From: Lachnospiraceae bacterium
GTDB lineage: Bacteria; Bacillota; Clostridia; Lachnospirales; Lachnospiraceae
DNA: 64,000 bases
Direction of reading: 5' to 3'
Assembly: GCA_017623295.1 (NCBI GenBank)
Contig: JAGAPK010000070.1
Location: 37,772-101,771 of the forward strand
In this document: positions 4,888 to 63,372 of the stretch, in pieces
Position numbering within the stretch: the first letter of the stretch is position 1
How the letters are laid out: each line of letters starts with the position of its first letter
The notes under the pieces: model-generated
What the model was told of the DNA's origin: nothing
The model's input: only the letters and a program-made list of their open reading frames with translations
Databases searched by the model: none
Position numbers and translations under genes: made by a program

Positions 4888-4888
4888 A

Positions 4889-45286: not shown

Positions 45287-45287
45287 T

Positions 45288-45689: not shown

Positions 45690-46056
45690 ATCAATTGTAG
45701 AGTTACTTGGAATTGAATATAAGGAAAGAGATGACGGATTATTATATCCAGTTCTTGGTTTGCAGGAAGAAAAGCAAATTGATGTGGGAAAGTATGGATA
45801 TATCTGGATTCAGTATATGCTGGAAAATCATAATGCCGAGTATCGAAAACTTGTAAGGGAAGGAAAGGTAAATTTGACCGCGGCTAAGATTAATGAAGAA
45901 GCATATGAAATGCTTGATGTAATCGTAGAAAAGTATCTTGAGAATCACAAACCAAAGAATCCTCATTCAACAATGGAGATGTGGAAACTAAGACAACAGG
46001 TGCAGATGCAGGCAGAAGAAATTGTCCTTGCATCTGTCATTTATAACAGATATTAG
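45682..46056 (+). CDS. TnpV family transposon-encoded protein
   Basis: 124 residues of the TnpV family: YGYIWIQYMLENHNAEYRKL, then EEAYEMLDVIVEKYLENHKPKNPHSTMEMWKLRQQ, a very conserved ending. TnpV proteins are found in Tn and integrative elements of Firmicutes; the function is unknown. The start is the GTG at 45682, which overlaps the previous gene by 8 bases and follows AGGAAGGTGA; the in-frame ORF reaches further upstream, but only across the neighbour gene. Confidence 0.88.
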   Translation: MSESIVELLGIEYKERDDGLLYPVLGLQEEKQIDVGKYGYIWIQYMLENHNAEYRKLVREGKVNLTAAKINEEAYEMLDVIVEKYLENHKPKNPHSTMEMWKLRQQVQMQAEEIVLASVIYNRY

Positions 46057-46070
46057 GGAGGAAATAGCTT

Positions 46071-46781: not shown

Positions 46782-46984
46782 TTGCATTTGCAAAGAAAGT
46801 GGAAGGACAGTTAAAAGAAAATGGCTATGATCCGGAGATTACACCAATCGTGTATTGTGGTGGTGGAGCCTGTGTGATGAAGGCTTTTGGAAGTATCAAA
46901 GGCTCTCATATCTGCTATATGGAAAATGTGAAAGCCAATGCAATCGGATATGAGTTCATTACTGAAAAGATGCTTCGAGGATAA
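46727..46984 (+). pseudogene. ParM/StbA, C-terminal part after the frameshift
   Basis: In this frame GEKCDLPEKYIEVCRQQLIAF continues the family directly from where the previous part leaves it, with the adenosine motif VYCGGGACVMK following. No ribosome site precedes a start here (TTG 46742 is the first candidate). If the shift is real, the cell makes a truncated N-terminal protein, which probably cannot polymerise. The stop lies just before the ParR-like gene, whose ribosome site GAGGATAA overlaps this end. Confidence 0.8.
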
Positions 46985-46988
46985 AGTC

Positions 46989-47441
46989 ATGGCAGGGAAA
47001 GATAACTACAAGATTGTGAATTTCAGGCTGAATCTGGAAAAGAAAGAAGAAAAGGAATTGTATGATTTTCTTCAAAGCATCGACGATGGAAATCTGAAAA
47101 ACTGCTATGGGAGTAAGAGTGGTTTCATCAAGGAAATATTGATTGCTCATATGCATGGTGGCGTTAATCGTGGGAGTGAGATTACTGGAGGTGCCGGTGG
47201 TTTCAGTGTTGCCGGTGTTGTTACTGCATTTACGGAGGATGCAAGAGCAGAGCTAAATAGTGTTGTAAAAGGTGCTTTGCTGGAATGCTTGGATACACTG
47301 GAAGTGTTCGTTGGAGCTGTCGCTTCTACTGACAAAGGAAATGCGACTATAATGGAACCGGATAAAGCATCTTCTATACCACAGCAGACGGATGATATTC
47401 CGGACGATGCAATGGATTATCTGAAAGAATTATATGGGTAA
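46989..47441 (+). CDS. ParR-like centromere-binding protein
   Basis: 150 residues. The start KDNYKIVNFRLNLEKKEEKELYDFL and GSKSGFIKEIL has the pattern of ParR/StbB ribbon-helix-helix adaptors that bind a centromere and the end of the ParM filament. The middle is Gly/Ala-rich (GGAGGFSVAGVV) and the C-terminus acidic (DDIPDDAMDYLKELYG), the latter fitting a ParM-binding tail. ATG 46989 has GAGG before it; the longer frame overlaps parM. Adjacent inverted repeats at 47458-47499 may be its binding site. Confidence 0.7.
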   Translation: MAGKDNYKIVNFRLNLEKKEEKELYDFLQSIDDGNLKNCYGSKSGFIKEILIAHMHGGVNRGSEITGGAGGFSVAGVVTAFTEDARAELNSVVKGALLECLDTLEVFVGAVASTDKGNATIMEPDKASSIPQQTDDIPDDAMDYLKELYG

Positions 47442-47457
47442 CAGTATAAACGGAGTC

Positions 47458-47620
47458 ATGTAGTACAAATGTTTTACAAAGAAAAATTTTGTACTACATC
47501 GGCTCTGATATTAAAGCTATTTTATATGGGTGCAGGGACTCCTGCCAAGACGAAAAATGGTAAGCGGATATACCGCTTATATATTTTTCGGGAAAAGGTC
47601 TGACCTTTTCCGCATCTTGC
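47458..47620 (+). other. oriT-like region with inverted repeats (in the 456-base gap 47442-47897)
   Basis: The gap between ParR and MobC has no gene but carries ATGTAGTACAAA/TTTGTACTACAT (47458-47469, 47488-47499), GCAGG/CCTGC (47532-47545), TAAGCGG/CCGCTTA (47561-47579) and a perfect GGAAAAGGTC/GACCTTTTCC with a 1-base loop (47591-47611). CATCTTGC (47613-47620), just 1 base after the last repeat, is one mismatch from the IncP-type nick core YATCCTGY. It lies upstream of MobC and a MOBP relaxase, the usual place for an origin of transfer. The rest of the gap, 47621-47897, shows no clear structure. Confidence 0.7.
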
Positions 47621-47897
47621 AAGAACTGTACCAACCGCGAAGAAAAAAATTAGGGGATAAAAATTGCTTCTCCAGAGTGGTTCGGTGAGATTTTTGGATG
47701 ACAAAATGAGGAAGTTGCGTTTGTGTAATACAACTATGGTGCAGACGAAAGTGATTTGTAAAAATGAAATGAAGATAGTGTCAAGTAAACTATGAAAAAA
47801 GCAGAGCAAAGAAAAAAGGGCTCAAACGAGAAATGAAGGTAGAGGTAAAAAGTATGTGGAAACAGATGAGTTACAGATGTAAGAGGAGCGTGATGAT

Positions 47898-48254
47898 GTG
47901 GCAGGAAGAAAGTATAAATCAGATATAAAGAACCGGAAAGTATCTGTCAAGTTGTCGGAGAAGGATTATGAAAAACTTTGTACGGATGCTAGGAATGTAG
48001 GCTTGAATATCAGTGAATATATGCGTGAACTGATAAGTAGTGGTGGGAAAGTAGACACTACTTATGCGGATGACAGAGCAAAACTGATAAGACAGGTGGT
48101 GGGTATTGCGACAAATGTCAATCAATTGGCGAAAAGGGCAAATGCAAATGAAAGGGTATACTATTCGGATATATTGAATATGCAGGATTATCTAAAGGAA
48201 GTTCAATATTCCATGAGCGAGGTACTGAAGGTATGGCAATTACAAAAATCCTGA
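47898..48254 (+). CDS. MobC relaxosome accessory protein
   Basis: 118 residues. A ribbon-helix-helix N-terminus (RKVSVKLSEKDYEKLCTDARNVGLNISEYMRELI) is followed by the MobC family's QVVGIATNVNQLAKRAN segment. Such proteins bind oriT and help the relaxase open the DNA. Translation begins at GTG 47898 after AGAGGAGCG. It overlaps the relaxase gene by 22 bases, a typical mobC-mobA arrangement, and lies directly after the oriT-like block. Confidence 0.9.
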   Translation: MAGRKYKSDIKNRKVSVKLSEKDYEKLCTDARNVGLNISEYMRELISSGGKVDTTYADDRAKLIRQVVGIATNVNQLAKRANANERVYYSDILNMQDYLKEVQYSMSEVLKVWQLQKS

Positions 48255-50317
48255 ATATACAGGCAGCGGATGACAGAAATCCTGCAACGCATCTAAAAAA
48301 TGCAATGGAATATATTCAAAATCCAGATAAAACCGAGGAATGTGTACTGGTGGGCAGTATTAACTGCTTGCCGGATACAGCATTTGAACAAATGATGGAA
48401 ACGAAAGAATTGTACCACAAAACAGGTAAAAGACAGGGGTATCATGTCATAATTTCATTTTCACCAGAGGAAGTGGTCACACCGGAACAGGCGTTATATG
48501 TGGTGGAGCATTTTGCAAAGGATGTATTGGGGGATGATTACGAAGCAGTATATACAGTGCATACGGATAAAGAGCATATGCATGCACATCTCATTTGGAA
48601 CAGTGTCAGCCTTGTTACCGGTAAGAAATATAATTCCCCAAAGGGTAACTGGAAGAATAAGCTTCAGCCGGTTACCAATAAATATTGCAAGGAATTGGGG
48701 CTAGAAATCTGTCCGGCGGAGTACAGTAAAAATCCTGTGAATATGACAAGGGATGAATGGCAGAAGGAACAGGATTTTAAGGAGTTTATATTTCGGGATG
48801 CTCAGTTTTGCGCGTTCAGTGCAGGAAGTGTGGAGCATTTTGAATTTCTGATGAGGAAGCTTGGATATGAATTTCAGCCAGGAAAATATCTGAGAGTAAG
48901 AATCCCGGGAAGAAAAATCTATCACAGGCTGGATAAAATGCACGAGATGTTTGAAGAAGGAAAACTGGACTGCTGGGTGGATATGCCATATATGGCAAAA
49001 CCATACTTTTATTCCAATAATCCTGAAAAAATATATCGTGCCGACATGAGTGAGTATCAGAAAAATTTCTATGCGAAGATATATCGGATGCGAGTTATCG
49101 AGCATAAGAGATTCGATTACAAATCAGCATATTATGCAGAGGAATTAAGAAAGCTCTACAAGGTGCATGACGAATATCTGTTACTTGTAAAGAATGATAT
49201 TCGGGATTTGCATGGTTTGATTCAGTTTATGGACAGTAAGGAAAGCGAGATAAAATCCATTGATGAAAGACAGCACAAGATATATAAGGAAAATCAGCGG
49301 AGAAAACGTAAGATTGTTACTACTGAGGAGATGCGTAAATATCAGAGTTGGCATTTATCAGTAGAGAAGGAACTAGCCAAACTAAAAGAGGAAAAGAAAA
49401 AGGCGAAGTATGATTACAAGCTGGCAGGAAATGTGTTGCGAGAGAATGTCTACACAGCACTATTGGTGGATGTGGAGAGGGAAGCCGTAAAGGATGTAAA
49501 TGAGGTGGTTATGCCGGAATTTGCTGGTGTGCGTGGTAATAAGGATAATTCTGTTGACAAGGAAGAAGTAGCAAAGGTTGCAGATGAAGTGGTTCCTGTA
49601 GAAGATACTGTGCAAAAGGATGAGAATGTGGAAGAGGTTGTTTCGGTAGATACGATTTCAGAAGGAATTACATCGGAAGAAGTTATATCAAAAGAAATCT
49701 TGTCGGATACGAGAGTTTCCGATGATGGTATGTCAAATGAGAGAAAGCCTGAAAATGCTATGGAGAATGTTGTAATTAGTGGTGAGGTGCCGGTTCGTAA
49801 TGATGTGGTCGGAGAAATAATAGAAGAGAAGTCTTATGATTTTCCTAAGAGATATACTGACTATTTGATGCTTGCATTAGAGAAGCGAGTGGAGTTGCAC
49901 GGACTTTTGAATGAAAGCATTGGTACCACAGTTTTTGATGTTGTTAGGCAGAGTTTTGACAAGGCTGGTTATCGCGTTGGTTATAATGATATATATAACG
50001 AAGCAACTGCGATTGAAAACTATATTTCCGGAGTAAAGCGTGCTGGCAGGGTGGAAAGGATAGCAAACCAATTCAAAGAATGTGGTTCATATGAAAATAT
50101 TCCGTCTGGTGTAAAAGCAGAAGTGTTTGGCTTTGAAATTGATGATTCAAGTGGCAATCTGAAGCTGTATATGAATGTTGTGAAAGCACTGGGATTACAA
50201 ATGAAGAAGGAGGAGATGTTTGAAGACTATCAGAAGGTGTATGAGGAGACGATTAAGAGACAGGACAGTTATGATGTGCAGAAGGATAAGATGTGGGAGC
50301 ACAGCAGGGCGAGATGA
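48233..50317 (+). CDS. MOBP-type relaxase (MobA)
   Basis: Relaxase of 694 residues that nicks oriT and leads the strand to the recipient. Y27 (NAMEYIQNPDKT) is the expected nicking tyrosine; the metal-binding histidine motif is TVHTDKEHMHAHLIWN (H110, H115, H117). Residues about 1-250 form the relaxase; the middle (about 290-420) is a basic coiled coil, and about 430-530 is an acidic, low-complexity stretch with many EE/VV and SEE words. The C-terminus is helical and unassigned. Start ATG 48233 overlaps mobC. Confidence 0.93.
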   Translation: MAITKILNIQAADDRNPATHLKNAMEYIQNPDKTEECVLVGSINCLPDTAFEQMMETKELYHKTGKRQGYHVIISFSPEEVVTPEQALYVVEHFAKDVLGDDYEAVYTVHTDKEHMHAHLIWNSVSLVTGKKYNSPKGNWKNKLQPVTNKYCKELGLEICPAEYSKNPVNMTRDEWQKEQDFKEFIFRDAQFCAFSAGSVEHFEFLMRKLGYEFQPGKYLRVRIPGRKIYHRLDKMHEMFEEGKLDCWVDMPYMAKPYFYSNNPEKIYRADMSEYQKNFYAKIYRMRVIEHKRFDYKSAYYAEELRKLYKVHDEYLLLVKNDIRDLHGLIQFMDSKESEIKSIDERQHKIYKENQRRKRKIVTTEEMRKYQSWHLSVEKELAKLKEEKKKAKYDYKLAGNVLRENVYTALLVDVEREAVKDVNEVVMPEFAGVRGNKDNSVDKEEVAKVADEVVPVEDTVQKDENVEEVVSVDTISEGITSEEVISKEILSDTRVSDDGMSNERKPENAMENVVISGEVPVRNDVVGEIIEEKSYDFPKRYTDYLMLALEKRVELHGLLNESIGTTVFDVVRQSFDKAGYRVGYNDIYNEATAIENYISGVKRAGRVERIANQFKECGSYENIPSGVKAEVFGFEIDDSSGNLKLYMNVVKALGLQMKKEEMFEDYQKVYEETIKRQDSYDVQKDKMWEHSRAR

Positions 50318-50393
50318 GCCCTGCTGGTGATGAAAAAATAATGTTTGTGGTCGGTGTTTACGTTTACGGTGAGTCTTGAGATTTTTTAATAGC

Positions 50394-50411
50394 CTCGCAT
50401 GAATTTGCGAG
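50394..50411 (+). other. Small hairpin after the relaxase gene
   Basis: CTCGCA (50394-50399) pairs with TGCGAG (50406-50411). No T-run follows, so termination is doubtful; it marks the border between the mobility genes and the defence cargo. Confidence 0.45.
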
Positions 50412-50417
50412 AAACTG

Positions 50418-50446
50418 TTGAGTATGTGATAGTTATGTGATACAAT
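50418..50446 (+). promoter_or_regulatory. Promoter of the XRE / helicase / type III R-M operon with operator-like repeat
   Basis: TTGAGT (50418-50423), a 17-base spacer and TACAAT (50441-50446). Within the spacer TATGTGATA occurs twice (50423-50431 and 50434-50442) with an 11-base step, one helical turn, as expected for a dimeric repressor such as the XRE protein encoded directly downstream. Confidence 0.75.
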
Positions 50447-50482
50447 ATAAGTTGATAATTTGAGCTTTATGGAGGAGCGATT

Positions 50483-50695
50483 ATGGCGGTATCATATAAA
50501 CGATTGTGGATAAAATTAGCCGAAAAAGAAATGAGTAGGGCAGAATTGAGAAAAAAAGCTGAAATAGCCCCCAATACTATGACAAAACTTGCTAAAAATG
50601 AATATGTTGCTATGCCAATTCTCGATAAGATATGTAAAGTTTTAGAAACAGATTATGGTGATATTATGGAGTATATACCGGAAAGCAATTGTTAA
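50483..50695 (+). CDS. Small XRE (Cro/CI) regulator, probable controller of the defence operon
   Basis: 70 residues comprising just a helix-turn-helix of the Cro/CI type found next to R-M and toxin genes: MSRAELRKKAEIAPNTMTKLAKNEYVAMPILDKICKVLETD. Such single-domain XRE proteins commonly act as controller (C) proteins of restriction-modification systems. TGGAGGAGCG precedes ATG 50483. It is the first gene after a promoter with paired repeats, and the helicase gene begins 97 bases after its stop without a terminator between. Confidence 0.85.
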   Translation: MAVSYKRLWIKLAEKEMSRAELRKKAEIAPNTMTKLAKNEYVAMPILDKICKVLETDYGDIMEYIPESNC

Positions 50696-50791
50696 TAGCA
50701 AGACAAATGTACCAATTATGGGACAGCATTTATGATAAGATGTTTTATGGGGAATCTTAATATGATTCAATATTGGAGGAGGAATACTTAT

Positions 50792-52786
50792 ATGAATATA
50801 TTTGAGGGACTTTCGGAAAAACAGCAAGAGGCAGTTGAAACAATTAATGAAGATTTGGAAATTATAGCATGTGCGGGTGCAGGGAAAACCGGTGTTGTAA
50901 CGAGAAGGATTGTAAATATTCTCAAGCAGAAAAAGGATATTACTCCAGCAAATATTGTGGCGTTTACATTTACAGAAAAGGCTGCCGGGGAGTTGAAGAG
51001 TCGTGTGTATAAATATGCAAAAGAAGAACTGGGAAGTACCATCGGCTTTGCAGAGATGTACATTGGAACAATACATGGATTCTGCTTAAAAATGTTACAA
51101 GAATATATACCGCAGTTTCAGAGTTTTTCTGTATTAGATGAGATAAAAACTAAGTTATTTATTGAAAAAAACTATTTTGATTGTGGCATGAGAGATCTTG
51201 GGTTAAAAATGTATGTTGAAACAGGTTTATTTCTTTCAACAATGAGTATGTTAAATGAAAGTTGGGAAACAAGAAATAATTGGGACAAATGTACATATGA
51301 TGCACTAGAGAAATATAGACAGTCGTTGTATTCGCAACATTATTTTGATTACTCACTTATTTTGCGTGAAATGCTGGATCAGATGCAGAATAATGACGAG
51401 TTTAGAGAAAGAATAACATCAAGAGTAAAATTTTTAACTGTAGATGAGTATCAGGATACAAATCCTATCCAAGAAAAACTTATACGCTTGATGAAGAATG
51501 GTGGATGTAATTTATGTATTGTTGGTGATGATGACCAGACGATTTATCAATTTCGTGGCAGTGATTCAGAGAATATACTAACATTCAAGGAGCGTTATGG
51601 TATCAATAAATATATCGTGCTTGATAAGGATTATCGGAGTTCGGAAGCAATAGTGGATATTGCCCAAAGAGTAATTATTAATAATAATCGCCGATTAAGT
51701 AAAAAAATGATATCGGGGGCAAATTTTAAGTATGAAGAAGGAGATACTATATATCGTGAATTTGAAGATATTGAGCAGGAATGTGATTTTATAGCAGATA
51801 GAATAAAAGCGTTGCATGAAAGTGGAGTAAAATATTCTGAAATGGCAGTTTTGCTTCGTAAGAAAAAATTTGGAGAGTTCTTTTCTGCATCATTTGATAA
51901 GTATGACATTCCGTATATCGTAGAAGGTGTCAATGAACTATTTTCTACAGCTGAATGTCAAGCTTCAAGAGGAATATTTAGGTATCTTAATGGTGAGATT
52001 AGCATGACAGAGCTTTTTAATTTGTGGAAAGGGATTAATTATAATCTGAATTTGAAGGATTTGTCGGATGCGTTGACTTACTTGAGTAGTATTGATGTAA
52101 AGAAGCTGAAATATTATGGTGAATTTATACTTCAAGAGATATATCACAATTTTCTTCGGATGATTTATATTACAGAAGAGGAAGGTAATACTGTTACAGA
52201 GGTGATTCTTTATAACTTAGGTAAATTTAGTCAGGTAATTAATGATTTTGAAACAATCAATTTTGCAACACTGCCTAAAAATAAGCTTGAACGATTCTGC
52301 AAATTCATGGAATATACAGCAAGTGGTTACTATCCAGAGGGACATTTAGATAATACATATATTCGTCCAGATGCTGTGAATATTATGACAGTGCATCAAG
52401 CGAAAGGCTTAGAGTATACAGCAGTTTTTGTTCCACAGTTGAGTAAAAACAACTTTCCGGCGGCAGGTGTAGGAGGTAAAAATGTTTGGCATGTGATAAG
52501 TAAAGATTGGGTTGAAAATTCGGAACGATTTAGTGGTGGTATTGAAGAGGAGCGAAGACTATTTTATGTGGCAATCACAAGAGCTAAAAAATATCTGTGT
52601 TTGACAAGGTGTCCGCATGGAAGAGATAAGAAGATTTCAACATTTATGATTGAAGCAAAGGATTCTCCATATATGCTATCTTACGATGACAGAATGGAGT
52701 ATTCAGGTAAGCAACTTCCCCCCCCCTATGGTAGAGGAGGAATCTGCTATCAGCTTGAATTTTTCGATTTTACAAGATTTCTTTGA
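50792..52786 (+). CDS. UvrD/Rep-type helicase, ORF shifted out of frame at C9 tract
   Basis: Superfamily 1 helicase: Walker A in ACAGAGKT (about residues 28-35), VDEYQDTN (motif II), GDDDQTIYQFRGSD (motif III), DYRSSEAI, MTVHQAKGLEYTAVFVP (motif V) and FYVAITRAKKYL (motif VI). After the C9 tract at 52718-52726 the frame gives a short non-homologous tail (YGRGGICYQLEF...) and stops at 52786. With eight C residues it would continue into the nuclease domain listed next, as one 899-residue AddA-like helicase-nuclease. The helicase motifs themselves are intact, so a helicase-only protein may still be made. ATG 50792 follows TTGGAGGAGG. Confidence 0.9.
   Translation: MNIFEGLSEKQQEAVETINEDLEIIACAGAGKTGVVTRRIVNILKQKKDITPANIVAFTFTEKAAGELKSRVYKYAKEELGSTIGFAEMYIGTIHGFCLKMLQEYIPQFQSFSVLDEIKTKLFIEKNYFDCGMRDLGLKMYVETGLFLSTMSMLNESWETRNNWDKCTYDALEKYRQSLYSQHYFDYSLILREMLDQMQNNDEFRERITSRVKFLTVDEYQDTNPIQEKLIRLMKNGGCNLCIVGDDDQTIYQFRGSDSENILTFKERYGINKYIVLDKDYRSSEAIVDIAQRVIINNNRRLSKKMISGANFKYEEGDTIYREFEDIEQECDFIADRIKALHESGVKYSEMAVLLRKKKFGEFFSASFDKYDIPYIVEGVNELFSTAECQASRGIFRYLNGEISMTELFNLWKGINYNLNLKDLSDALTYLSSIDVKKLKYYGEFILQEIYHNFLRMIYITEEEGNTVTEVILYNLGKFSQVINDFETINFATLPKNKLERFCKFMEYTASGYYPEGHLDNTYIRPDAVNIMTVHQAKGLEYTAVFVPQLSKNNFPAAGVGGKNVWHVISKDWVENSERFSGGIEEERRLFYVAITRAKKYLCLTRCPHGRDKKISTFMIEAKDSPYMLSYDDRMEYSGKQLPPPYGRGGICYQLEFFDFTRFL
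52718..52726 (+). repeat. C9 homopolymer tract (candidate phase-variation switch)
   Basis: Nine consecutive C residues lie at the exact point where the helicase and nuclease parts change frame. Loss of one C joins them as SGKQLPPPMVEEES. In DNA of this low GC content a run of nine C is exceptional, and such tracts are classical slippage switches in surface and R-M genes. Confidence 0.85.
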
Positions 52787-53492
52787 TTGTGCTTACAGAT
52801 TCAAGTTGTCAATGTTCTATGGATTTGTACAACCTATTGCGGCTGCGATGGGTTACGGAAATGCTGTACATAACATTGTACGTAACATTCATAAGAAGTA
52901 CCTTGACGGCGAGAGTCTTACGAGTGAAGAAGTTCAGTCGATAGTAGAGGAAACTTTTTTTCTACCATATGCAAATAGCAAAATGGAACAAAATATGTTA
53001 GCGAGTGCGAAGAAATCAGTTGATAGTTATTTTCAGAAGAATAAGGAAGACTTCAAAAATATCGAAATGGCAGAAGCGGATATTGAATTAGATATGGGAG
53101 ATGGTATTAAGGTTAATGGACGTATCGACCTTGTAAAACGTCGTGAAATATCAGGAGAAGAAAAAATAACAATAGTTGATTTTAAGACAGCTGACAGAGA
53201 TGTTACAGAATGTTTGGAAGCGGAACAGCTTAGAATTTATGCACTTGGATACCAAGAACTGACAGGAAAAAGTGCAGACTATTTAGAGATTCTAAATCTT
53301 GACAATGCAGAAAGTGATAGGGTTCGCGTGACGGAAGGACTCACAGAAACGATTGCACAAGATATTCGAAATGCAGCAAAGAATATCAGGGCAAATAAAT
53401 TGGATAAAAAGTGTTCAAAGGAGAAGTGTAGTACCTGTTATTTGAATTATCTCTGTTTAAGTAAGGAAGAAAAGAAAACTTATGTTGAGTAG
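52728..53492 (+). CDS. RecB/Cas4-like PD-(D/E)XK nuclease domain of the helicase-nuclease, out-of-frame part
   Basis: This frame holds the C-terminal nuclease domain: NAVHNIVRN (histidine), NGRIDLV (aspartate), ITIVDFKTA (D-x-K), LEAEQLRIYALG (motif QxxxY), and four cysteines for a [4Fe-4S] cluster (C in FDCAYRF; then C-C-C in KEKCSTCYLNYLC), as in AddB and Cas4. The first ATG (52728) has no ribosome site, so this part is poorly made unless the C tract has eight residues, or translation slips. The mod gene starts 8 bases after the stop with its own AGGAGG. Confidence 0.85.
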   Translation: MVEEESAISLNFSILQDFFDCAYRFKLSMFYGFVQPIAAAMGYGNAVHNIVRNIHKKYLDGESLTSEEVQSIVEETFFLPYANSKMEQNMLASAKKSVDSYFQKNKEDFKNIEMAEADIELDMGDGIKVNGRIDLVKRREISGEEKITIVDFKTADRDVTECLEAEQLRIYALGYQELTGKSADYLEILNLDNAESDRVRVTEGLTETIAQDIRNAAKNIRANKLDKKCSKEKCSTCYLNYLCLSKEEKKTYVE

Positions 53493-53500
53493 GAGGGCTT

Positions 53501-55144
53501 ATGGCTAATTTATCACAGATAAAAAGAGAAAAAATGTTGGAATTTCTTGAGACATTGAAGGAACAGCATAATGATGATGCGTCATTGATGGCAATCAATC
53601 AGATAGAGAAAGAACTTACAACAAAAAAATATGGTCTTGTGTGGGAAGAACACGAGGAAGAAGTAGATGTAAAAATGCATACACATATTCCTGTGTTTAC
53701 AGAAGTGAAAGATAAAGAAATTGTGGGAAATCCGGAAAGTGAGCAGTACAATTTTCTCTTGGAGGGAGATAATCTGCATTCACTTAAGTTATTGGAAAAG
53801 ACGCATAAAGGGAAGATCGATGTAATATATATTGATCCGCCGTATAATACAGGGCATAAAGATTTTATTTATGATGATGCTTTTGTAGATAGACAGGACG
53901 GTTATACACATAGTAAGTGGATATCTTTTATGGAAAAAAGATTAAGATTGGCACATGTTTTATTGAAATCATCAGGCACAATATTTATCAGTATCGATGA
54001 TAACGAGTATGCCAATTTGAAATTGCTGTGCGATGAGATTTTTGGCGAAGAGAATATGATATCTGATATTATTTGGAATTCAAGAAAATCTGTGTCTAAT
54101 GATGCAGTGGTGTCGTTGAATCATAACTATACATTGGTGTATACGAGAAACATAAATGAGTTTAGTAAAGTTAAACATACATTTAAACTAGCAGATACAG
54201 GAATGGGATTTGATAATCCAGATGATGATCCAAGAGGACCGTGGAAAGCAGATCCTTTTGATAGTCCGGGAATCCGTCCTAATTTAACGTATGGAATCAA
54301 AAATCCTAATACGGGTGAAGAATTCTGGCCACCGAAAGGAAGATGTTGGAGAACTGGAGAAAAAGAGTATTATGAATACTTGGCAGATAATAGGATTTTA
54401 TTTGGAAAAACAGGTAAGGGTAAACCGCAACTGAAACGTTTCCTTTCAGAAGCACAAAGTAAAGGGATAACGCCAAAATCACTTTGGGATGATTGTGGAA
54501 CTGCGACTGATGGAACAAAAGAACTTCAAGGAATATTTGGAGAAAAAGTGTTTGACACACCTAAACCTACAGGATTGATAAAAAAGATTATTGATTTGGC
54601 AGGCGATAAAGAGTCTTTGATTTTGGATTTCTTTGCGGGGTCTGGCACGACAGCTCAAGCAATATTAGATAAGAATAACGAGGATGGTGGAAATAGAAAA
54701 TTCATTTTATGTACTAATAATGATGGGGATATTTGTTCAGAGGTAACATATCCAAGAATTTCTACAGTTATTACAGGAAAACGGTTAGATGGTAGTGTTT
54801 ATTCTGAAGGAATAAATGCAAATCTAAAATATTATAAAACTGATTTTGTAGATAAAGAAAGTGAAGAAATTTATGAAGATCTTCTTGAACATATCAAAGA
54901 AATGATTCAACTTCAGTACGGAGTGAAGGTGGATAATCAGAAATATATTATGATTATGGATGACGAGGAAATGGATGAGTTTGAAAAACATTTCAGTAAA
55001 TATGATGATATAAAAGTGGTATTTATTAATCAAGATGTTTTGCTAACTACTGCACAAGAAAAGTTGTTGCAGAATATTGATGTTAGAATTATTCCAGATT
55101 GCTACTTTGACTTTGAATTAAGAGAGGTAGGAGAATTATGGTAA
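53501..55144 (+). CDS. Type III restriction-modification methyltransferase (Mod)
   Basis: Adenine-N6 DNA methyltransferase of the beta class, 547 residues. The catalytic motif IV is DPPYNTGHKDF (about 112-122) and the SAM motif I is LDFFAGSGTTAQAIL (about 375-389), in the beta order (IV before I). The region between (about 170-340), holding the target recognition domain, is unlike other genes here. The N-terminal helical segment (1-50) and the C-terminal part are typical for Mod, which sets the site specificity of the whole complex. AGGAGGGC precedes ATG 53501. The stop overlaps the start of res by 7 bases. Confidence 0.95.
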   Translation: MANLSQIKREKMLEFLETLKEQHNDDASLMAINQIEKELTTKKYGLVWEEHEEEVDVKMHTHIPVFTEVKDKEIVGNPESEQYNFLLEGDNLHSLKLLEKTHKGKIDVIYIDPPYNTGHKDFIYDDAFVDRQDGYTHSKWISFMEKRLRLAHVLLKSSGTIFISIDDNEYANLKLLCDEIFGEENMISDIIWNSRKSVSNDAVVSLNHNYTLVYTRNINEFSKVKHTFKLADTGMGFDNPDDDPRGPWKADPFDSPGIRPNLTYGIKNPNTGEEFWPPKGRCWRTGEKEYYEYLADNRILFGKTGKGKPQLKRFLSEAQSKGITPKSLWDDCGTATDGTKELQGIFGEKVFDTPKPTGLIKKIIDLAGDKESLILDFFAGSGTTAQAILDKNNEDGGNRKFILCTNNDGDICSEVTYPRISTVITGKRLDGSVYSEGINANLKYYKTDFVDKESEEIYEDLLEHIKEMIQLQYGVKVDNQKYIMIMDDEEMDEFEKHFSKYDDIKVVFINQDVLLTTAQEKLLQNIDVRIIPDCYFDFELREVGELW

Positions 55145-57345
55145 GTAAGATAAAAGAATATGAATTCCAAGCACAATGTGTGGAGTATCTGATAGATAAA
55201 ACAGTCGAGACTACCAGTAAGCAGGTAATTACTGTAAAGGCTCCGACTGGTGCTGGGAAAACGATTATATTGATAAAGTATGTAGATGACTTTTTAAAAA
55301 ATACTGGTAAAAATACTGCTTTTGTATGGTTATGTCCTGGAAAGGGTAATCTGGAGGAACAAAGCAAAGAGAGAATGGAGGAAATGGCTCCTCATATAGA
55401 CACAAGAAATCTAATGTATTCTATGATGGCGGGATTTGAACCGGGCAGTGTTACATTTATAAACTGGGAGCTAGTCACCAAAAAAGGAAACACAGCACTA
55501 AAAGATAGTGAACGTTCTAATCTTTTCGAAAAGATTGCGGAAGCCCACAAGGATGGAATAGAATTTGTAGTTATTATTGATGAGGAGCATTTGAACAATA
55601 CTAAGAAAGCGGATGATGTAATAAGTGCATTTGCTGCTAAGAATATTATTCGTGTTTCTGCTACGGCAAATAAAGTGCCACATCAGGAATACTATGAAAT
55701 CAGCGAAGAAGATGTTATAGGAGCTGGGCTGATTACTAGAGCGATTTATGTAAATGAAGGTGTGGATGAACGTAAAGAAATACAGAATGATTATGAGTAT
55801 TTGCTTGACTTGGCTGATGAAAAAAGAAAAGAAATAGCAGAGGCGTATCATAAATTAGAGGTTAATGTGCGCCCCCTTGTTTTGATACAGTTTCCGATGG
55901 GACAACCAGAAACGATTAAAGCGGTAGAAGAAAAACTTTCCAGTATGGGATATACTTATGAAAATGGTATGGTTAATATTTGGATGAGTGATGAAAAAGT
56001 TGTAAGCGAAGATCTTATAAACCTAGATGGTTCGCCGGCATTTCTTTTGATGAAGCAGGCAATATCTACTGGCTGGGATTGTCCGAGGGCTAAAGTTCTT
56101 GTTAAATTGCGTGAAGGAGGAAGTGAGGATTTTCAGATTCAAACAATTGGTAGAATTCGCCGAATGCCGGAAGGTAAGCATTATGGTTTGAATATTCTCG
56201 ATTACTGTTATATCTATACATTGGATACACAGTATAAGATGGGGTTATTGTCTTCTCTTGATAAAGCATATCAAGTACGTCGATTATTCCTCCGCGATGA
56301 GGCAAAAGGTTTTACGCTTACTAAAGAGCTGCGCGATTTGGATTTTGATGGTCTTGGTGAACGTGAGACGTTGGAAAAAGTATATGATTATTTCAAGAAA
56401 ACTTATAACCTCGGTTCTGATAAGAATGTTAATCGAGAAAATCTTGAAGCGGGTGGATATAATTTCAGTCATGAGATTGATAATAAAATTCTTCAGGGAG
56501 TATTTAGGACGACGGAGGCTCTTGCACAAGGTGGTTCTGATAATCGAATAAAAATAAAAACAACGGTAAACACACATACACATGGTATTTACCTGCTGCA
56601 TTCCGTTGATGAAATCAAAAAAGTTACAGGTATGCAATCTCAAAAGGTAAAGAATATTCTTAGAAGAATGTTTAGCAAAGGAAAAAAGAGAAAGTACAAA
56701 CTTATTGAATTGGAGAATGCTGATTTCTATGCGTTCGTTATCAATAATGTAAAACAGTTGAAGATGGATTTTAAGATGGTAACATCGCAAATGGGTGGTA
56801 AACAGATGTCTTTTTCGCTCAATCCTAAAACCACAGATTTTTATATTCCGGATATGGAAATCTATAAATTTAGTGAGGTTAAGAATCGTCAATTACTTCG
56901 TATGAATGCATACAAAGAATATACAAATGAGTTTATTACAGATAAGACACGAAGCCGTCCGGAAAGACTATTTGAACGCTATTGCGAAAAAAATGATTTT
57001 GTCGAATGGGTTTACAAAAATGGAGATACTGGACAGCAATATCTTTCAATTGTATATACAGATGCATTTTTGAAACAATGGTTGTTCTATCCGGATTATA
57101 TTGTTCATTTAAAAGATGGAACAGATTGGATTATTGAAACTAAGGGTGGCGAAGTATCGGGACATAGCAAAAACATAGATTTACAGATGGGGAATAAGTT
57201 CAATGCATTTAAACAGTATGCAGAGAAGTATAAGCTAAATTGGGGCTTTGTAAGAGATATAGATGATGAACTTTTTATCAATAATACTGAATTTGTTGAT
57301 GATATGTCAGATGATAGATGGAGACCGTTGGAGGAGGAACTGTAG
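55138..57345 (+). CDS. Type III restriction enzyme, helicase-nuclease subunit (Res)
   Basis: 735 residues. Superfamily 2 helicase with Walker A VKAPTGAGKT (35-42) and Walker B IIDEEH (147-151); QTIGRIRRMPEG is motif VI. The C-terminal PD-(D/E)XK nuclease has YPDYIVHL (D653) and IIETKGGE (E667, K669). It is shorter than most Res proteins (900-1000), but all motifs are there. Res translocates or switches along DNA after ATP hydrolysis and cuts near Mod sites in head-to-head orientation. It overlaps mod by 7 bases, so the two are co-translated. No terminator with a clear T-run follows. Confidence 0.95.
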   Translation: MVSKIKEYEFQAQCVEYLIDKTVETTSKQVITVKAPTGAGKTIILIKYVDDFLKNTGKNTAFVWLCPGKGNLEEQSKERMEEMAPHIDTRNLMYSMMAGFEPGSVTFINWELVTKKGNTALKDSERSNLFEKIAEAHKDGIEFVVIIDEEHLNNTKKADDVISAFAAKNIIRVSATANKVPHQEYYEISEEDVIGAGLITRAIYVNEGVDERKEIQNDYEYLLDLADEKRKEIAEAYHKLEVNVRPLVLIQFPMGQPETIKAVEEKLSSMGYTYENGMVNIWMSDEKVVSEDLINLDGSPAFLLMKQAISTGWDCPRAKVLVKLREGGSEDFQIQTIGRIRRMPEGKHYGLNILDYCYIYTLDTQYKMGLLSSLDKAYQVRRLFLRDEAKGFTLTKELRDLDFDGLGERETLEKVYDYFKKTYNLGSDKNVNRENLEAGGYNFSHEIDNKILQGVFRTTEALAQGGSDNRIKIKTTVNTHTHGIYLLHSVDEIKKVTGMQSQKVKNILRRMFSKGKKRKYKLIELENADFYAFVINNVKQLKMDFKMVTSQMGGKQMSFSLNPKTTDFYIPDMEIYKFSEVKNRQLLRMNAYKEYTNEFITDKTRSRPERLFERYCEKNDFVEWVYKNGDTGQQYLSIVYTDAFLKQWLFYPDYIVHLKDGTDWIIETKGGEVSGHSKNIDLQMGNKFNAFKQYAEKYKLNWGFVRDIDDELFINNTEFVDDMSDDRWRPLEEEL

Positions 57346-57600
57346 TTTCACACAATTACTAGTTGTGTATGATGTTTTGCTGTGAAATCAGAACTCCCAA
57401 TATAAATGTGGATAGGTGGGATTTAGGTGACCAATCCCCAAAAATTAATAAGTTCATTTTAGGGAAAATACTTTTATAAAGAACTTGTTTACTCCAAGTT
57501 AAAATTTAATTTTTGTGATGGCAAAGGTACTGATTTTGTTACTGCAGGATAATATAAATATATAGTGTTATCGAAAGTTTTGGGAAGGAGAAGTGGAAGT
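57346..57600 (+). other. Gap between the type III R-M unit and the DUF1016 gene
   Basis: 255 bases without a gene. ACACAA (57350-57355) pairs with TTGTGT (57363-57368) just after the res stop, but no T-run follows. AT-rich sequence with TATAAA words lies before the DUF1016 start and probably holds its promoter; I could not define a -35/-10 pair with confidence. Confidence 0.5.
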
Positions 57601-58698
57601 ATGAGAAACAATATAAGTACAGAAATAACAACAGTAGATGCTGAAATTATAAAATTATGTACTGACTCCGTCGAATTAATACATTATGCAAGAAATGTTG
57701 CTGTGAAACAAGTGAACGTCCTGCAGATAATGACTTATTATTCATTAGGCAGGTGGATTGTGGAAACACAGCAAATGGGGCAGAAACGTGCAAAATATGG
57801 TAGCAAAGTAATAAAAACATTATCAGAGGAATTACAGAAAGAATTTGGTAAAGGATTTTCGCAAGAAACATTAAAAAATGCAAGAAAGTTTTATTTGACA
57901 TATAAAGAACGAATTAGCGAAACAGTATTTACCCTTTTTGCTGTTGAAAAAAGCAAAACAGTGTTTGGCTTTTTTGAAGATGAACAACCATTCCTTGTAT
58001 CGTGGTCGCATTATATACAATTAATGCGTATAGAAAATGAGGATGAACGTAGTTTTTATGAAATAGAATCAGCAAAATCTGGATGGGGAGTACGTACATT
58101 ACAAAGGCAATATAATTCCAGCTTATATGAACGTTTGGCACTAAGCAGAGATAAGGAAGGTGTTTTGCGTTTAGCAAAAGAAGGAAATGTTATTACAAAG
58201 CCAGAGGATATTATAAAGCAACCAACGGTATTAGAATTTCTTGGAATGGAAGAAAAAGCAAAATATTCCGAAACAGATTTGGAAACAGCCCTTATAAACA
58301 AATTGCAGAAATTTTTATTGGAGTTAGGCAAGGGTTATCTGTTTGAGGCAAGGCAGAAACGATTCACTTATGAAGAAGACAATTATTATGTGGATTTAGT
58401 ATTTTATAATCGTTTGCTTCGTTGCTATGTATTGGTTGATTTGAAGGTGGACAAACTGACACATCAAGATATTGGTCAGATGCAAATGTATGTTAATTAT
58501 TATGATAGATATGAAAAATTGGATGATGAAAATCCTACAATAGGTATTCTATTGTGTAAAGAAAAGAATGACGCTTTGGTTGAAATTACTTTGCCCAAAG
58601 ACGCTAACATTTATGCATCAGAATATAAACTGTATTTGCCAGATAAAAAGTTACTTCAACAGAAATTGAAGGAATGGATTGCAGAGGAAGAGGAATGA
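57601..58698 (+). CDS. DUF1016 (YhcG-like) PD-(D/E)XK nuclease
   Basis: 365 residues of the YhcG/DUF1016 family. The N-terminal domain spans about 1-165 (SLGRWIVETQQMGQKRAKYG and FSQETLKNARKFYL, WSHYIQLMRI) and the C-terminal nuclease about 205-350, with D265 (YYVDLVFYN) and D280-L-K282 (VLVDLK), followed by IGQMQMYVNYYDR. YhcG proteins occur beside R-M genes and in defence islands; a nuclease role in defence or recombination is inferred. ATG 57601 has AAGGAGAAG before it. A decayed duplicate of an internal stretch lies at 63500-63580. Confidence 0.9.
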   Translation: MRNNISTEITTVDAEIIKLCTDSVELIHYARNVAVKQVNVLQIMTYYSLGRWIVETQQMGQKRAKYGSKVIKTLSEELQKEFGKGFSQETLKNARKFYLTYKERISETVFTLFAVEKSKTVFGFFEDEQPFLVSWSHYIQLMRIENEDERSFYEIESAKSGWGVRTLQRQYNSSLYERLALSRDKEGVLRLAKEGNVITKPEDIIKQPTVLEFLGMEEKAKYSETDLETALINKLQKFLLELGKGYLFEARQKRFTYEEDNYYVDLVFYNRLLRCYVLVDLKVDKLTHQDIGQMQMYVNYYDRYEKLDDENPTIGILLCKEKNDALVEITLPKDANIYASEYKLYLPDKKLLQQKLKEWIAEEEE

Positions 58699-58757
58699 TT
58701 AGGTTAAAGAGATAATGTTTGTTGTGAGATAGAAAGTAATTTGGAATGGTGGTAAAA

Positions 58758-61700
58758 ATGGGAAAAAATTTGCTTGCTGGTATAGGGGATGCATATTGGT
58801 ATGAATGGTATGTGGGATTGGAAAAGGTGCTTGATTTATTAAATCCTGATACGGATGTTGTAGGGGTTACTTTACAGGCTTCTCAGCAACAAGGTTTAGA
58901 TGATGTGGTAGTCAGATATAATGATAAAAAATTAGAGTGTATACAGGTAAAACATACTAGGAAAGATAGTACTTTATCATATTCATTTCTGTTTTGTGAG
59001 CATACAGAAAATGGAAAAAAAGCACCGGCATGTATAAAGGAATATAGCGACGATTGGAAAATGATCAAGGATAAGTACGAGCAATGTATTCCGATTATTT
59101 ATACTAATAGAAAAATTGGCGATAGAAGTTATACTCCTCCAAATGGAAAAGGTTATAAGAGACCACCATTAATGAAATTTTGGATGACTTTGAAAGAGGA
59201 ATTGGAAACTGCCGAGTCAATTTCCGATATTCAGTTTTCTGCAATGATACACCATACGTTACCGTCTGTGCGTGAAATGGGAAAAGTGTATAAGCAGGCT
59301 TTTGGTAATATTTTACAACAGATGCCGTCATTATCTGATGAAGAAAAGCTTGTGTTTTTAAAAGAATTTCAAATTTATTCTGATGAAACAAAAGATTTTG
59401 ATAATATAAAGAAATTTGTTAATGAAAAATTAGCTAATTTTCTAAATGTTGATGAACGTCAATGTACTAAATATCATAATCGGTTACTAAGAGGGCTTAC
59501 CGAGTGGACGGTTTCTACTCGTTCCGAAGAAGAAATTACAAAAGAGCAGGTTTTATCAGTATTAGGATTAAAAAAAGATGAACTTATTGGAGAACATAAT
59601 TTCGCAACAGAAGAACCTTTTTTTCAGTCGCGCGTACGATGGATAAAAATTTTGAAAGACGAAATTTTAAGCGTAAACAAAGGGGTGTTTTTTATATCTG
59701 GTGAGCCGGGTGCTGGTAAGACCAATATTATTAATTATTTGGCAAATGAAGATGATAGCATTATTACTACAAGATTTCATTCATTTAAGCCGATACAGAT
59801 AGAATATGATGTGATGCCGGCGGATGAGGGAATATATTCGGCAGAGGATTTTTGGAAAAATACCTTGATACAAATAAAAGATAAATTTGAAGGGTGCATG
59901 GAAAAATATAATGTTCCTGTAGCAGTAGAAGCTATTAAATCTGTGGATAAAAAAATTAAAGAAGTACTACGTTTAGCGAACTGTTTGTATAAAGAAACTG
60001 GGAAAATAACGGTCATTGTGGTTGATGGAATAGATCATGCAGCACGTTCAGGAAAGAAAAATACATTTTTAAAAACTTTGCCATCCCCAAATCGTTTGCC
60101 TGATGGAGTCGTTTTTTTGCTAGCAGGACAGCCGTATTCGAATAATCCGGAATATCCTTTATGGTTAGATGGTAACGATGTGATTACAAAAGCGGTGCCC
60201 ACTTTAGAGAGTGAAGACATTAAGCAGTTATTAACGGATAGTAATATATCTTTTGGAGATGCCACGGTTGAGGAAATTGCAGAATATATTTTTTCAGTAA
60301 CAAAAGGAAATACTTTGTCAGTTATGTACGCGGTTTATGATGCTAAGGGGCATGATTCTATCTGTAATTATGAAAAATATATTACAAATAGAAATCTGGC
60401 AAATGGTATAGATGCTTATTATGACTATATTTGGCAAAGTGCAATGGATAAGTGGGATGATTTATATAAGCACGTCGAGATAGTATTGTCGGGGGCTATG
60501 ACATTACTAAATAGAGGGATTACAATAGAACTGTTGCAGACATTGCTTAAGGATATTACAAAAATAACTGACATTCAGCTTGTATGCTGGATGCAGGATA
60601 TAGAACCGCTGATTATCAAAAATGATAAAGAGGCTTATTCGGTATACTCAAATGATGTCCGGTTGTTTTTAGGGAAGAAATTTGAAAGAAGTGGTGAGAA
60701 CAAGCGTATAGTAGCTGATAAAGTTTGCGAGTATATATTAAAAGAAAATACTAATATTGCACTAAGGCATGATTCTTTGTTTAATAGTTTGATTATGGCT
60801 AATCGCAGAAAAGAAATACCGCAATATTTTGATGCAAAATATGCTTATGAAGCAGTTATAGAAAATCGTCCATTAAGTGAATTGCAGGAACAAATATATG
60901 CGGTACTTGAAGTATTGGCAGAGGATGGAGAAATGGAATGTTTGGTCGGCGTATCGTGTGCAATAAGTACAATAACGCAGTATCAAAATTCGATTTTCCA
61001 AGATGAGGATTATTTTTATAATGTTGAAGAATCGCTTCCTTGTGAGAAACAGGCACTTAGCACAAAAACAATAACAGCAAGAGAATTGCTTCAAGCTTTG
61101 GTACAGATAAAGCAATTAGCGGAAGCCGGATGTGAGCATAGAGCAAAAAGTGCATTTAAGAGATGGATTGGGAATAGAACTCCTGGGCAAATTGGAAACA
61201 AGTATGCATCGGCGGAGGAAAGACAGTGCCATTATAATTTTAATGATACATTGAAGAATGTTTTGCGAATGTTTGGAAAATTATGTTTTATATTTGGAGA
61301 AAGTTCATATGAAGATAAAAGGTTAAAAAAGGGAGAAGAAGATGCCGAGGCATTTTTCGCGGAAGGAGTTTTTGAAGCTTGTGAAAATAGTATAGACATA
61401 GCCGGAATTGATAAAGCATATCGACTGATCCAATGTTATTATCCAGATGATAATGACAAGTTTATAGATAAGTTGCTCCTTACTGGAAAAAAGGAGTTAA
61501 TTGAACATTTTGCAATTCATTATACAAAAGGGTTAGAAGACAATATGCAAATTATAGTGTTGTATATATATACTTTTGTATTGGGATGTGTTGTAACGGA
61601 GTCTCCGAATTTAACAAAGATTACTAATCAGGAGAACAAATATCTTGAATTCTTGTATAAAGTATGGGTATATTCCTATTGTGATACTTACAAGTGTATG

Positions 61701-63353
61701 GATTTTGCTGCAGAAGGAATTGCTCAATGGAAAGAAAATCAAGGGAATAAGTATTTGTGGAGACTTTTAGTAAATCAGATTCTTTTCGTCAGTGATTTAA
61801 ACAAAGTAGCTTGTGGCGAAAAAATTAAAATTTCGGATGATGATTTCTGCCGATATGTATGTGATGTCCTTAATGGAGAGCCTCAGATGGATGTAGGAGT
61901 GCAATTGAAAATAAGGGAGTTTCACCAACATTTGATAGTCGTAATGTTGCTTACATTAGACAAACTGGATGAGAAATATAAAAAATTAGCATTACCTATT
62001 ATAGAGAGACGTATGGAAAATTCTTGTTGGCTCATAGAAAATTTATGGGAATATGTTTTAAGGAATGAAAAGAAGATTAATGTTTTAGAACGGATATTTG
62101 ATTTATGGATGAATCCTAAAGGCAAGGTATGGAAAATGCCGCAGGAAGAAATAAAAGAATGTGCGGCAATATTCATAAAAATGGGTAAAAGAATGAGGTG
62201 GACTGAAAAAGTTCAGGCAGCTGAAAATCTATTAAAAGCTAAAAGGATTTTAGGATATTCTGGTCATAAAGAATATGGTGGCTATAATTTGTTGAGATGG
62301 TATGAAAATATATCTTCTGATGCTCCCCAAATATGGAAATCTTTGGGAATGCGTCTGCTTAATGTATCGGGTGTGATTAGTGAAACAGGAGATAATAGAG
62401 CAGATGTTTATGTGGATGCTGCTGTTGCTTCATCTGCAGGCAGATGTGGAATAAATGATATGATTTCCTTTAGCTACATATCTAATAATGGAGAGACTCA
62501 GTGGCGTCAAACGGTTTTTGACGCAGTAATTGCATACTTGGAAAATAGTAAGGTGGACAAAAATAACCTTCTTAGTCTTTGGAAATGTGTTTGCAAGGTA
62601 TTTCCGGTATTGAAAGGAAGTTCAGAATATTCATATTATAATAATATAAATGCGGTTTATAGAGAGGATTTGAAAAAAGCTATATTAGCTAACGGTAAAA
62701 AGAACGAAATCGTAATTGAAGAAGAAATGAAAAAAATCGAACCAGATTGTTTTGGGAAAATATGTAAATTGCGTGATACATATAAGATACCAAACAGGTG
62801 GTTTGAACAGGATGATTTTATGGCTATTGAGGATTCGTTGCAAAATTGTATTGTGAAAATTTCTCAAGAAGGAAGCCTTGGTAGTAATGAGTGGAAAGTT
62901 ATTCTGCCATTGTTAAAGCAGTCAGTCAAAAAAGGAGAGAACACCTGTACAGAAGAGATTTTTTCTCTTGTTATGCAAAGACCGAGAGACTATGCAAATT
63001 GGGAGTGGGATGGTGTACAAAATTTACTTGTGGAATTGATTCCGTTATTAGAAGAGAAAGATATTCGGCGGTTGATACAGGATATTATAGACAGAAATAA
63101 AGAATATCAACAGAAGTATGACAAGCCGTTGAGTTTTTTCTATCCCAATATTGATATAGAATACCTTGCTTATGCGTATAATCGAAATACTGAGGTGGAG
63201 AAACGGATTAAGTTGTATGCAAAAATTTTAGATATGCATGAAATGTGGATAACAGCGAATGGAATGATTGAATTACCGAGTTTGTTTGAACTAAAACAAA
63301 TTACAGAAGGTAATGATATGGATGACTTAATAGAACGATTATATCAATTGTAG
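58758..63353 (+). CDS. Giant STAND NTPase with N-terminal nuclease domain (DUF4297/Cap4-like), Avs-type defence candidate
   Basis: 1531 residues in three parts. An N-terminal domain (about 1-200) carries a PD-(D/E)XK variant, LDDVVVRYN with ECIQVKH (D49 and Q63-V-K65), the QVK form of DUF4297/Cap4-type nucleases. A STAND NTPase follows with Walker A SGEPGAGKT (about 315) and Walker B IVVDGIDHA (about 420). The remaining 900 residues are helical repeats with no known domain, in the place of the sensor of Avs proteins. DUF4297-STAND is the layout of Avs3, which detects a phage protein and then degrades DNA. ATG 58758 has GGTGG before it; ATG 58746 is an alternative. Confidence 0.85.
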   Translation: MGKNLLAGIGDAYWYEWYVGLEKVLDLLNPDTDVVGVTLQASQQQGLDDVVVRYNDKKLECIQVKHTRKDSTLSYSFLFCEHTENGKKAPACIKEYSDDWKMIKDKYEQCIPIIYTNRKIGDRSYTPPNGKGYKRPPLMKFWMTLKEELETAESISDIQFSAMIHHTLPSVREMGKVYKQAFGNILQQMPSLSDEEKLVFLKEFQIYSDETKDFDNIKKFVNEKLANFLNVDERQCTKYHNRLLRGLTEWTVSTRSEEEITKEQVLSVLGLKKDELIGEHNFATEEPFFQSRVRWIKILKDEILSVNKGVFFISGEPGAGKTNIINYLANEDDSIITTRFHSFKPIQIEYDVMPADEGIYSAEDFWKNTLIQIKDKFEGCMEKYNVPVAVEAIKSVDKKIKEVLRLANCLYKETGKITVIVVDGIDHAARSGKKNTFLKTLPSPNRLPDGVVFLLAGQPYSNNPEYPLWLDGNDVITKAVPTLESEDIKQLLTDSNISFGDATVEEIAEYIFSVTKGNTLSVMYAVYDAKGHDSICNYEKYITNRNLANGIDAYYDYIWQSAMDKWDDLYKHVEIVLSGAMTLLNRGITIELLQTLLKDITKITDIQLVCWMQDIEPLIIKNDKEAYSVYSNDVRLFLGKKFERSGENKRIVADKVCEYILKENTNIALRHDSLFNSLIMANRRKEIPQYFDAKYAYEAVIENRPLSELQEQIYAVLEVLAEDGEMECLVGVSCAISTITQYQNSIFQDEDYFYNVEESLPCEKQALSTKTITARELLQALVQIKQLAEAGCEHRAKSAFKRWIGNRTPGQIGNKYASAEERQCHYNFNDTLKNVLRMFGKLCFIFGESSYEDKRLKKGEEDAEAFFAEGVFEACENSIDIAGIDKAYRLIQCYYPDDNDKFIDKLLLTGKKELIEHFAIHYTKGLEDNMQIIVLYIYTFVLGCVVTESPNLTKITNQENKYLEFLYKVWVYSYCDTYKCMDFAAEGIAQWKENQGNKYLWRLLVNQILFVSDLNKVACGEKIKISDDDFCRYVCDVLNGEPQMDVGVQLKIREFHQHLIVVMLLTLDKLDEKYKKLALPIIERRMENSCWLIENLWEYVLRNEKKINVLERIFDLWMNPKGKVWKMPQEEIKECAAIFIKMGKRMRWTEKVQAAENLLKAKRILGYSGHKEYGGYNLLRWYENISSDAPQIWKSLGMRLLNVSGVISETGDNRADVYVDAAVASSAGRCGINDMISFSYISNNGETQWRQTVFDAVIAYLENSKVDKNNLLSLWKCVCKVFPVLKGSSEYSYYNNINAVYREDLKKAILANGKKNEIVIEEEMKKIEPDCFGKICKLRDTYKIPNRWFEQDDFMAIEDSLQNCIVKISQEGSLGSNEWKVILPLLKQSVKKGENTCTEEIFSLVMQRPRDYANWEWDGVQNLLVELIPLLEEKDIRRLIQDIIDRNKEYQQKYDKPLSFFYPNIDIEYLAYAYNRNTEVEKRIKLYAKILDMHEMWITANGMIELPSLFELKQITEGNDMDDLIERLYQL

Positions 63354-63372
63354 ATAAAGAGTTTTTTATAAA

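Follow-up and report, generated by a model that had tools for sequence, protein, structure and literature searches.

The stretch considered here comprises 64,000 nucleotides of a Lachnospiraceae bacterium assembly (GCA_017623295.1, contig JAGAPK010000070.1), hereafter the window. It holds a gene that is a UvrD-Cas4 helicase-nuclease, accessory to a type III Mod/Res cassette in the order helix-turn-helix (HTH) gene, UvrD-Cas4 gene, mod and res, and within this gene a run of nine C (C9) splits the helicase from the nuclease. This observation is confirmed, and the tract is real and exceptional for its genome. Overall the locus combines a sequence feature that is unusual in its genome with a system of a known type, the tract is absent from the relatives examined, and switching is a candidate reading of it. 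That the tract is slippage-prone, reversible and of recent origin, with the nuclease half ON at lengths of 8 and 11 and OFF at 9 and 10, is the reading that we favour, at about even odds.

The tract and its place in the fusion gene

The features on which the argument turns are the following.

50792..52786, forward strand: UvrD-type superfamily 1 (SF1) helicase half of the UvrD-Cas4 fusion gene, 664 amino acids as assembled, with a short out-of-frame tail past the tract
52718..52726, forward strand: C9 homopolymer, which puts the nuclease half out of frame
52650..53492, forward strand: Cas4-like PD-(D/E)XK nuclease half, an open frame with four conserved cysteines (Pfam PDDEXK_1, PF12705, 2.1e-21; Cas_Cas4, 2.5e-5)

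Read directly from the window sequence, the homopolymer lies in the linker between the helicase and nuclease domains, and the domains that adjoin it are in different frames. The helicase open reading frame (ORF) begins at ATG 50792, crosses the tract and ends with the stop at 52784-52786, and the nuclease frame is open from a point 5' of the tract up to 53492, its post-tract part beginning at about 52728 and continuing without any further stop or frame break. Counting frames for tract lengths from 4 to 12 yields a full-length product only at 5 (898 amino acids), 8 (899 amino acids) and 11 (900 amino acids), lengths of 4, 6, 7, 9, 10 and 12 being out of frame; changes of one base toggle the frame, and the part downstream is intact. 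The locus has the SF1 UvrD-type helicase, the Cas4-like nuclease and the adjacent mod and res genes that mark members of the UvrD-Cas4 group, and the two domains do not share one reading frame as assembled. Because these frames are separate, the gene is termed here a broken or switched-off copy and not an intact UvrD-Cas4 member. An independent start for the nuclease at ATG 52728, right behind the C run, was judged unlikely, no Shine-Dalgarno-like sequence being seen nearby by eye.

The helicase half matches the Pfam families UvrD-helicase (3e-60) and UvrD_C (7.5e-45). In a four-row alignment with the window sequence as first row, the nuclease half has D134, D151-x-K153 and cysteines 21, 234, 237 and 243 at invariant positions. 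The first-pass annotation of this DNA, made from the letters alone, had given the coordinates, the frames and an 899-codon fusion with eight C, all of which are correct by frame count.

The scarcity of comparable runs was assessed over the whole assembly, a draft of 2,775,454 bases in 74 contigs with a completeness of 87.75 percent by tool. A search for seven C on both strands returned three overlapping matches, all inside the tract, which is the only C or G run of at least seven in these 2.78 Mb; a search for six C returned 33 matches, four of them within the tract, leaving 29 runs of exactly six. These counts bear out the earlier claim that a nine-C run is very rare here. Across 117,760 bases, made up of the window and 20 of 30 tRNA loci (with about 870 bases of two overlapping loci counted twice), there were 876 C or G runs of three, 134 of four, 27 of five, one of six and one of nine. 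Extrapolated to the genome, runs of at least nine would be expected about 0.003 times at the decay estimated from five to six, and 0.1-0.3 times at assumed gentler decays of 0.15-0.2. Against this, within the 64 kb window alone a dinucleotide shuffle for seven C was not significant, 39 of 100 shuffles giving at least three matches, under a model that does not reflect this genome's scarcity of long C or G runs. The gene has the mark of a contingency locus, an in-gene tract far longer than the genome background.

Relatives of the fusion gene and the length of the linker

Relatives were drawn from a scan of one genome per species, in which 152 were confirmed and the best 80 of the 152 compared; counts over 80 refer to this set throughout. 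Helicase homology is present in the nuclease ORF of all 80 out of 80, and the frame break is consequently not conserved among homologues in the manner of a programmed frameshift. None of the 80 nuclease ORFs contains an A or T run of at least nine. Eight of the 80 ORFs fall short of 800 codons, most of them lying at contig ends, and one of these eight (L116) has its helicase part interrupted further upstream by an in-frame stop. Two arrangements were rejected on these comparisons, a conserved family switch, with 80 of 80 relatives fused and the tract in none, and a natural two-gene arrangement, the nearest relatives being fused.

The linker itself was compared by eye on printed strings. From an S-x-Y/C motif to LNFS it has one length in all 11 of the closest homologues (L042-L052), with L/I-P-x between. 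In the nearest relative (L049), whose nuclease half is 78 percent identical to that of the window (80 percent by tblastn), the linker reads LPPM. A tract of five C in the window would match the relatives' linker length, and eight C would amount to one extra proline; since the relatives' length corresponds to five C here, the tract of this lineage has lengthened by a net four bases, either via an in-frame eight-C state or in one larger jump. On this comparison of sequences C9 looks like a recent local change and not an established family switch. The first-pass annotation had proposed a comparison across related loci and had itself counted homologues fixed at one length as evidence against a switch, and the outcome leans that way: the 11 nearest share one linker length, and none of the 80 shows a comparable run.

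Relative to L049 the ratio of nonsynonymous to synonymous differences per site (pN/pS) is 0.183 for the nuclease half and 0.194 for the helicase half, with synonymous sites saturated, and because of that saturation the values argue against long neglect of the nuclease half and nothing more.

Much of the neighbourhood recurs among the nearest loci. Homology to mod comes next on the same strand in nine of the 11 (L042-L052), and homology to res follows mod in eight of the 11, being cut by the locus end in L052; the L046 locus stops before res could appear, and L047 and L048 show neither mod nor res homology by the same test. L042 and L043 each have an HTH homologue 5' of the fusion gene. In L049 the mod homology is broken by an in-frame stop (L049:3769-4137 and 4141-5406; whole 3769-5406). 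The Priestia plasmid relative (L041) lies near a cytosine methyltransferase and a Vsr-type gene, a neighbourhood that corresponds to the second context given in the excerpts consulted of PMC5704561.

Searches for near-identical copies covered several collections. At the DNA level 71 of 299 family genomes had a match, at full length solely in the genome of origin, the other matches spanning 25-67 bases and lying mostly over the helicase motif region. Protein searches found matches in seven of the 299 family genomes (the genome of origin included, the best other at 32 percent) and in five of 77 genus genomes (again with the genome of origin, the best other at 80 percent), and a profile search found them in 19 of 397 family genomes, the genome of origin included. 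Some of the weaker, distant matches have stops inside the matched stretch (G270 in the protein search; G118, G409, G461 and G247 in the profile search). Among plasmid and phage records the DNA search gave one weak plasmid match and none in phages, and the protein search gave 11 plasmid and three phage records, all below 60 percent. Two protein searches of viral contigs gave one and two loci, with one contig common to both, and the flank pattern of the tract occurred in zero stretches of the viral contigs.

Proposed slippage and its alternatives

A nine-C run is physically prone to slippage and reversion. If the tract slips in vivo and switching is reversible, as the switching reading supposes, the proline-coding C run of the linker would have grown to nine from a length equal to five C in the 11 closest relatives, and the assembled nine-C state would yield a short-tailed helicase without the nuclease. 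Replication slippage, by losing one C or gaining two, would restore the fused enzyme, so that a mixed population would be expected, with the OFF state dominant in this assembly. Cells in the ON state would be expected to have a fused enzyme that unwinds and cleaves DNA in a RecB/AddAB-type manner, alongside Mod/Res restriction, and those in the OFF state would keep the helicase with its short tail, Mod and Res being unaffected; with Mod and Res on throughout, turning the nuclease ON or OFF would change defence or self-damage. By eye, a helicase-type core and a PD-(D/E)XK-like motif at the C-terminus can be made out in Res, a pattern which suggests that basic restriction may proceed without the nuclease half. 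The wider proposal, that a mobile defence element gained a slippage switch for the UvrD-Cas4 nuclease alone, the helicase, Mod and Res remaining expressed and cells hedging strong defence with a risk of self-damage against mild defence, seems rather unlikely.

The genus provides a background for such a tract. C or G runs of at least eight occur in 76 of its 77 genomes, that of the window included. A sample of 48 distinct tracts (the first listed tract of 29 genomes plus the stretches around further tracts of four of them, located in L128-L156 and L187-L198; not random, with repeats dropped) contained five of length 8, 14 of 9, 22 of 10 and seven of 11, and a commonest length of 10 is unlike chance decay. 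The sampled tracts lie mostly in coding sequence: 31 of the 48 have at least 40 open codons on both sides, and of these 31 tracts 18 are in frame and 13 are not, while the remaining 17 are situated close to the end of an ORF or lie in no clear ORF. A scan of 20 tract proteins gave Pfam matches at 1e-4 for 18, with 17 reaching the family cut-off; the families include three flagellins, two CotH proteins, three FkbM methyltransferases, two response regulators, an MBOAT acyltransferase, a PMT_2 protein and others. These tracts appear to mark contingency genes throughout the genus, within a Lachnospiraceae-type group, and open-licence titles and abstract openings, among the matches listed, describe no phase variation by homopolymer tracts in Lachnospiraceae, gut Clostridia or Firmicutes.

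Several results weigh against a switch at the present locus. A C or G run of at least seven was found in none of the 80 nuclease ORFs of relatives, and no variant of tract length was seen, in genomes that numbered one per species. The genus sample is mostly poly-G on the coding strand, whereas C9 is poly-C on that strand, and those sampled genes that matched Pfam are surface, flagellar, glycan or regulatory genes, none of them a recognised defence gene. The genome of origin, unlike most of the genus, has no other such tract, and for that reason it is not obviously a user of this mode of switching. The slipped-strand switch proposed at first pass keeps the support of an exceptional tract, its position in the domain linker, toggling by one base and the genus background, and loses that of the family, the tract being absent in 80 of 80 relatives.

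The genus survey also yielded observations of separate interest. The genome of origin has its one tract (two eight-base matches), compared with dozens of eight-base matches in many species of the genus; a few other genus genomes are likewise low in such matches, and one has none. In three genomes a G10 tract stands a few bases before the ATG of a flagellin gene (L130:1501, L134:1501 and L194:7227), in a setting common to all three that reads GATTTCGTC, G10, TAAA or TAAAA, and ATG, where changes of length might affect translation initiation rather than frame. A further stretch (L187, G301:C54:210000-229999) packs five poly-G tracts, each 9-10 bases long, into about 16 kb; two lie within or next to frames of FkbM-type methyltransferases, and this cluster is a candidate set of phase-variable glycan genes.

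The split could also have arisen by one-way recent inactivation, a frameshift at a run that drift had lengthened, with the element decaying or the nuclease costly and the tract no more than the site of the break. Mobile elements often lose their accessory defence genes, and both the lineage-specific occurrence of the tract (0 of 80 relatives) and the lack of a second C or G run of at least seven in its own genome fit such an event. This account is nonetheless rather doubtful, in that the helicase, nuclease, mod, res, YhcG-type and 1535-amino-acid genes (the last two described below) are otherwise open frames, the relatives' linker differs by four bases and not by one, and a run of this length tends to revert. 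Also to be considered, and unlikely, is an error of consensus length, by which the true tract would be eight (or eleven) C and the gene intact. Length errors commonly fall in homopolymers, this is a draft assembly in 74 contigs at 87.75 percent completeness, and eight C would give an unbroken fusion; a C8 tract, if real, would still be the longest C or G run of the assembly. Very unlikely is a bypass at the level of expression, by ribosomal +1 frameshifting on CCC codons or by slippage of RNA polymerase, with the tract setting a ratio of helicase to helicase-nuclease: three CCC codons follow in succession, the 37 tRNA matches include tRNA-Pro genes with TGG and AGG anticodons and none with GGG, and +1 frameshifting at proline codons has been studied, as far as the excerpted sources go, but a GGG tRNA could be missing from a genome that is 87.75 percent complete, and the frame is unbroken at this place in 80 of 80 relatives, so there is no conserved programmed frameshift site.

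Should the tract switch, type III defence could here be tuned by arming and disarming an accessory nuclease and not by methylation, with the chromosome staying protected, and matched ON and OFF cells in one culture would offer a handle on the contribution of UvrD-Cas4. Should it be a mere fresh frameshift, the locus would be an ordinary broken copy of a known cassette.

The cassette, its probable carrying element and known systems

The remaining genes of the cassette and of its surroundings are as follows.

40977-42518: guaA
44207..45286, forward strand: tyrosine integrase of the probable carrying element, downstream of guaA
46071-46781: weakly ParM-like gene, below its family cut-off
48233..50317, forward strand: MobA/VirD2-type relaxase (Relaxase, 8e-38)
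50483..50695, forward strand: small Cro/C1-type HTH protein (HTH_26, PF13443, 3.6e-18), a possible regulator of the cassette
53501..55144, forward strand: type III methyltransferase (mod), ORF unbroken (N6_N4_Mtase, 4.9e-36; PADLOC MTase_III, 1.3e-149)
55138..57345, forward strand: ResIII-type protein (res), ORF unbroken (ResIII, 4.8e-12; weak PADLOC REase_III, best 6.8e-13)
57565..58698, forward strand: YhcG/DUF1016 PD-(D/E)XK nuclease, a neighbouring defence-type gene (PADLOC candidate PDC-S02; Pfam)
58746..63353, forward strand: 1535-amino-acid NTPase-like protein, a neighbouring defence-type gene (AAA_22, 1.6e-6; LmuA-like N-terminus, PADLOC LmuA, 1.1e-12)

The order of genes runs from guaA through the tyrosine integrase, the weakly ParM-like gene and the relaxase to the cassette, the YhcG-type nuclease and the 1535-amino-acid gene. 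The carrier is a probable integrative element beside guaA, and it is probably mobilisable. The YhcG-type nuclease and the LmuA-like gene 3' of the cassette possibly form part of a wider defence island on the element. No drug-resistance gene was found in ten scanned stretches of 44207-63353 (Pfam or NCBIfam), about five short ORFs at 45288-48254 lying outside the scan. That the fusion gene stands before a type III mod gene, as stated at first pass, agrees with the assignment of mod by both Pfam and PADLOC. The mod gene has no tandem repeat (TRF, score of at least 30) and no C or G run of at least six; the sole tandem repeat reported in 50400-63400 by the same program and threshold lies at 52865-52889, outside mod. 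An anti-phage role is presumed for the helicase-nuclease gene.

The nearest known system was described in 2017 by Hudaiberdiev et al. In the excerpts consulted of that work (PMC5704561), a fusion of UvrD with a Cas4-like nuclease (pfam12705) is associated with type III Mod and Res, with HTH genes near it in several loci, and a role in defence is proposed. The same two domains, the same association with Mod and Res and a nearby HTH gene are found here; the fusion of the window, unlike those, is split by C9, a tract which the excerpts do not mention. They also describe unfused pairs of UvrD and Cas4-like genes, mostly in Clostridiales and in contexts not indicative of defence, whereas the nearest relatives of the present gene are fused. 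Open-licence titles and abstract openings, among the matches listed, describe no phase-variable UvrD-Cas4 gene.

In type III systems with a third, helicase-like gene of unknown role 5' of mod (PMC8259958, from excerpts), an extra helicase or ATPase gene stands directly 5' of mod and res, as it does here, but that helper is SF2-like (superfamily 2) and without an endonuclease motif in the parts consulted, whereas the present protein joins an SF1 UvrD-type helicase to a Cas4-like nuclease. Phasevarions, in which type III mod genes are phase-variable (PMC2667262 and PMC3498834, likewise from excerpts), share with this locus a simple-sequence tract in a type III restriction-modification locus and an ON/OFF change of frame. 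A repeat tract in mod, which defines them, is lacking here; the tract lies in the accessory helicase-nuclease, and methylation is not expected to switch. The first-pass annotation had thought a switch in a coupled accessory gene new for this reason, and the mod gene does lack a tandem repeat, but the pairing of UvrD-Cas4 with type III Mod/Res had already been published in the 2017 work (PMC5704561), going by its excerpts. Poly-G/C contingency genes of Campylobacter and Helicobacter (PMC8355987 and PMC2823697, in the portions consulted) resemble the gene in having homopolymer tracts within genes, which there are a source of phase variation and here are a candidate for one; the host in the present case belongs to a Lachnospiraceae-type group, going by its nearest named relatives. 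Set beside these systems, as far as the excerpts of the published accounts extend, the layout of the cassette is already known, and the split by C9 is what differs here.

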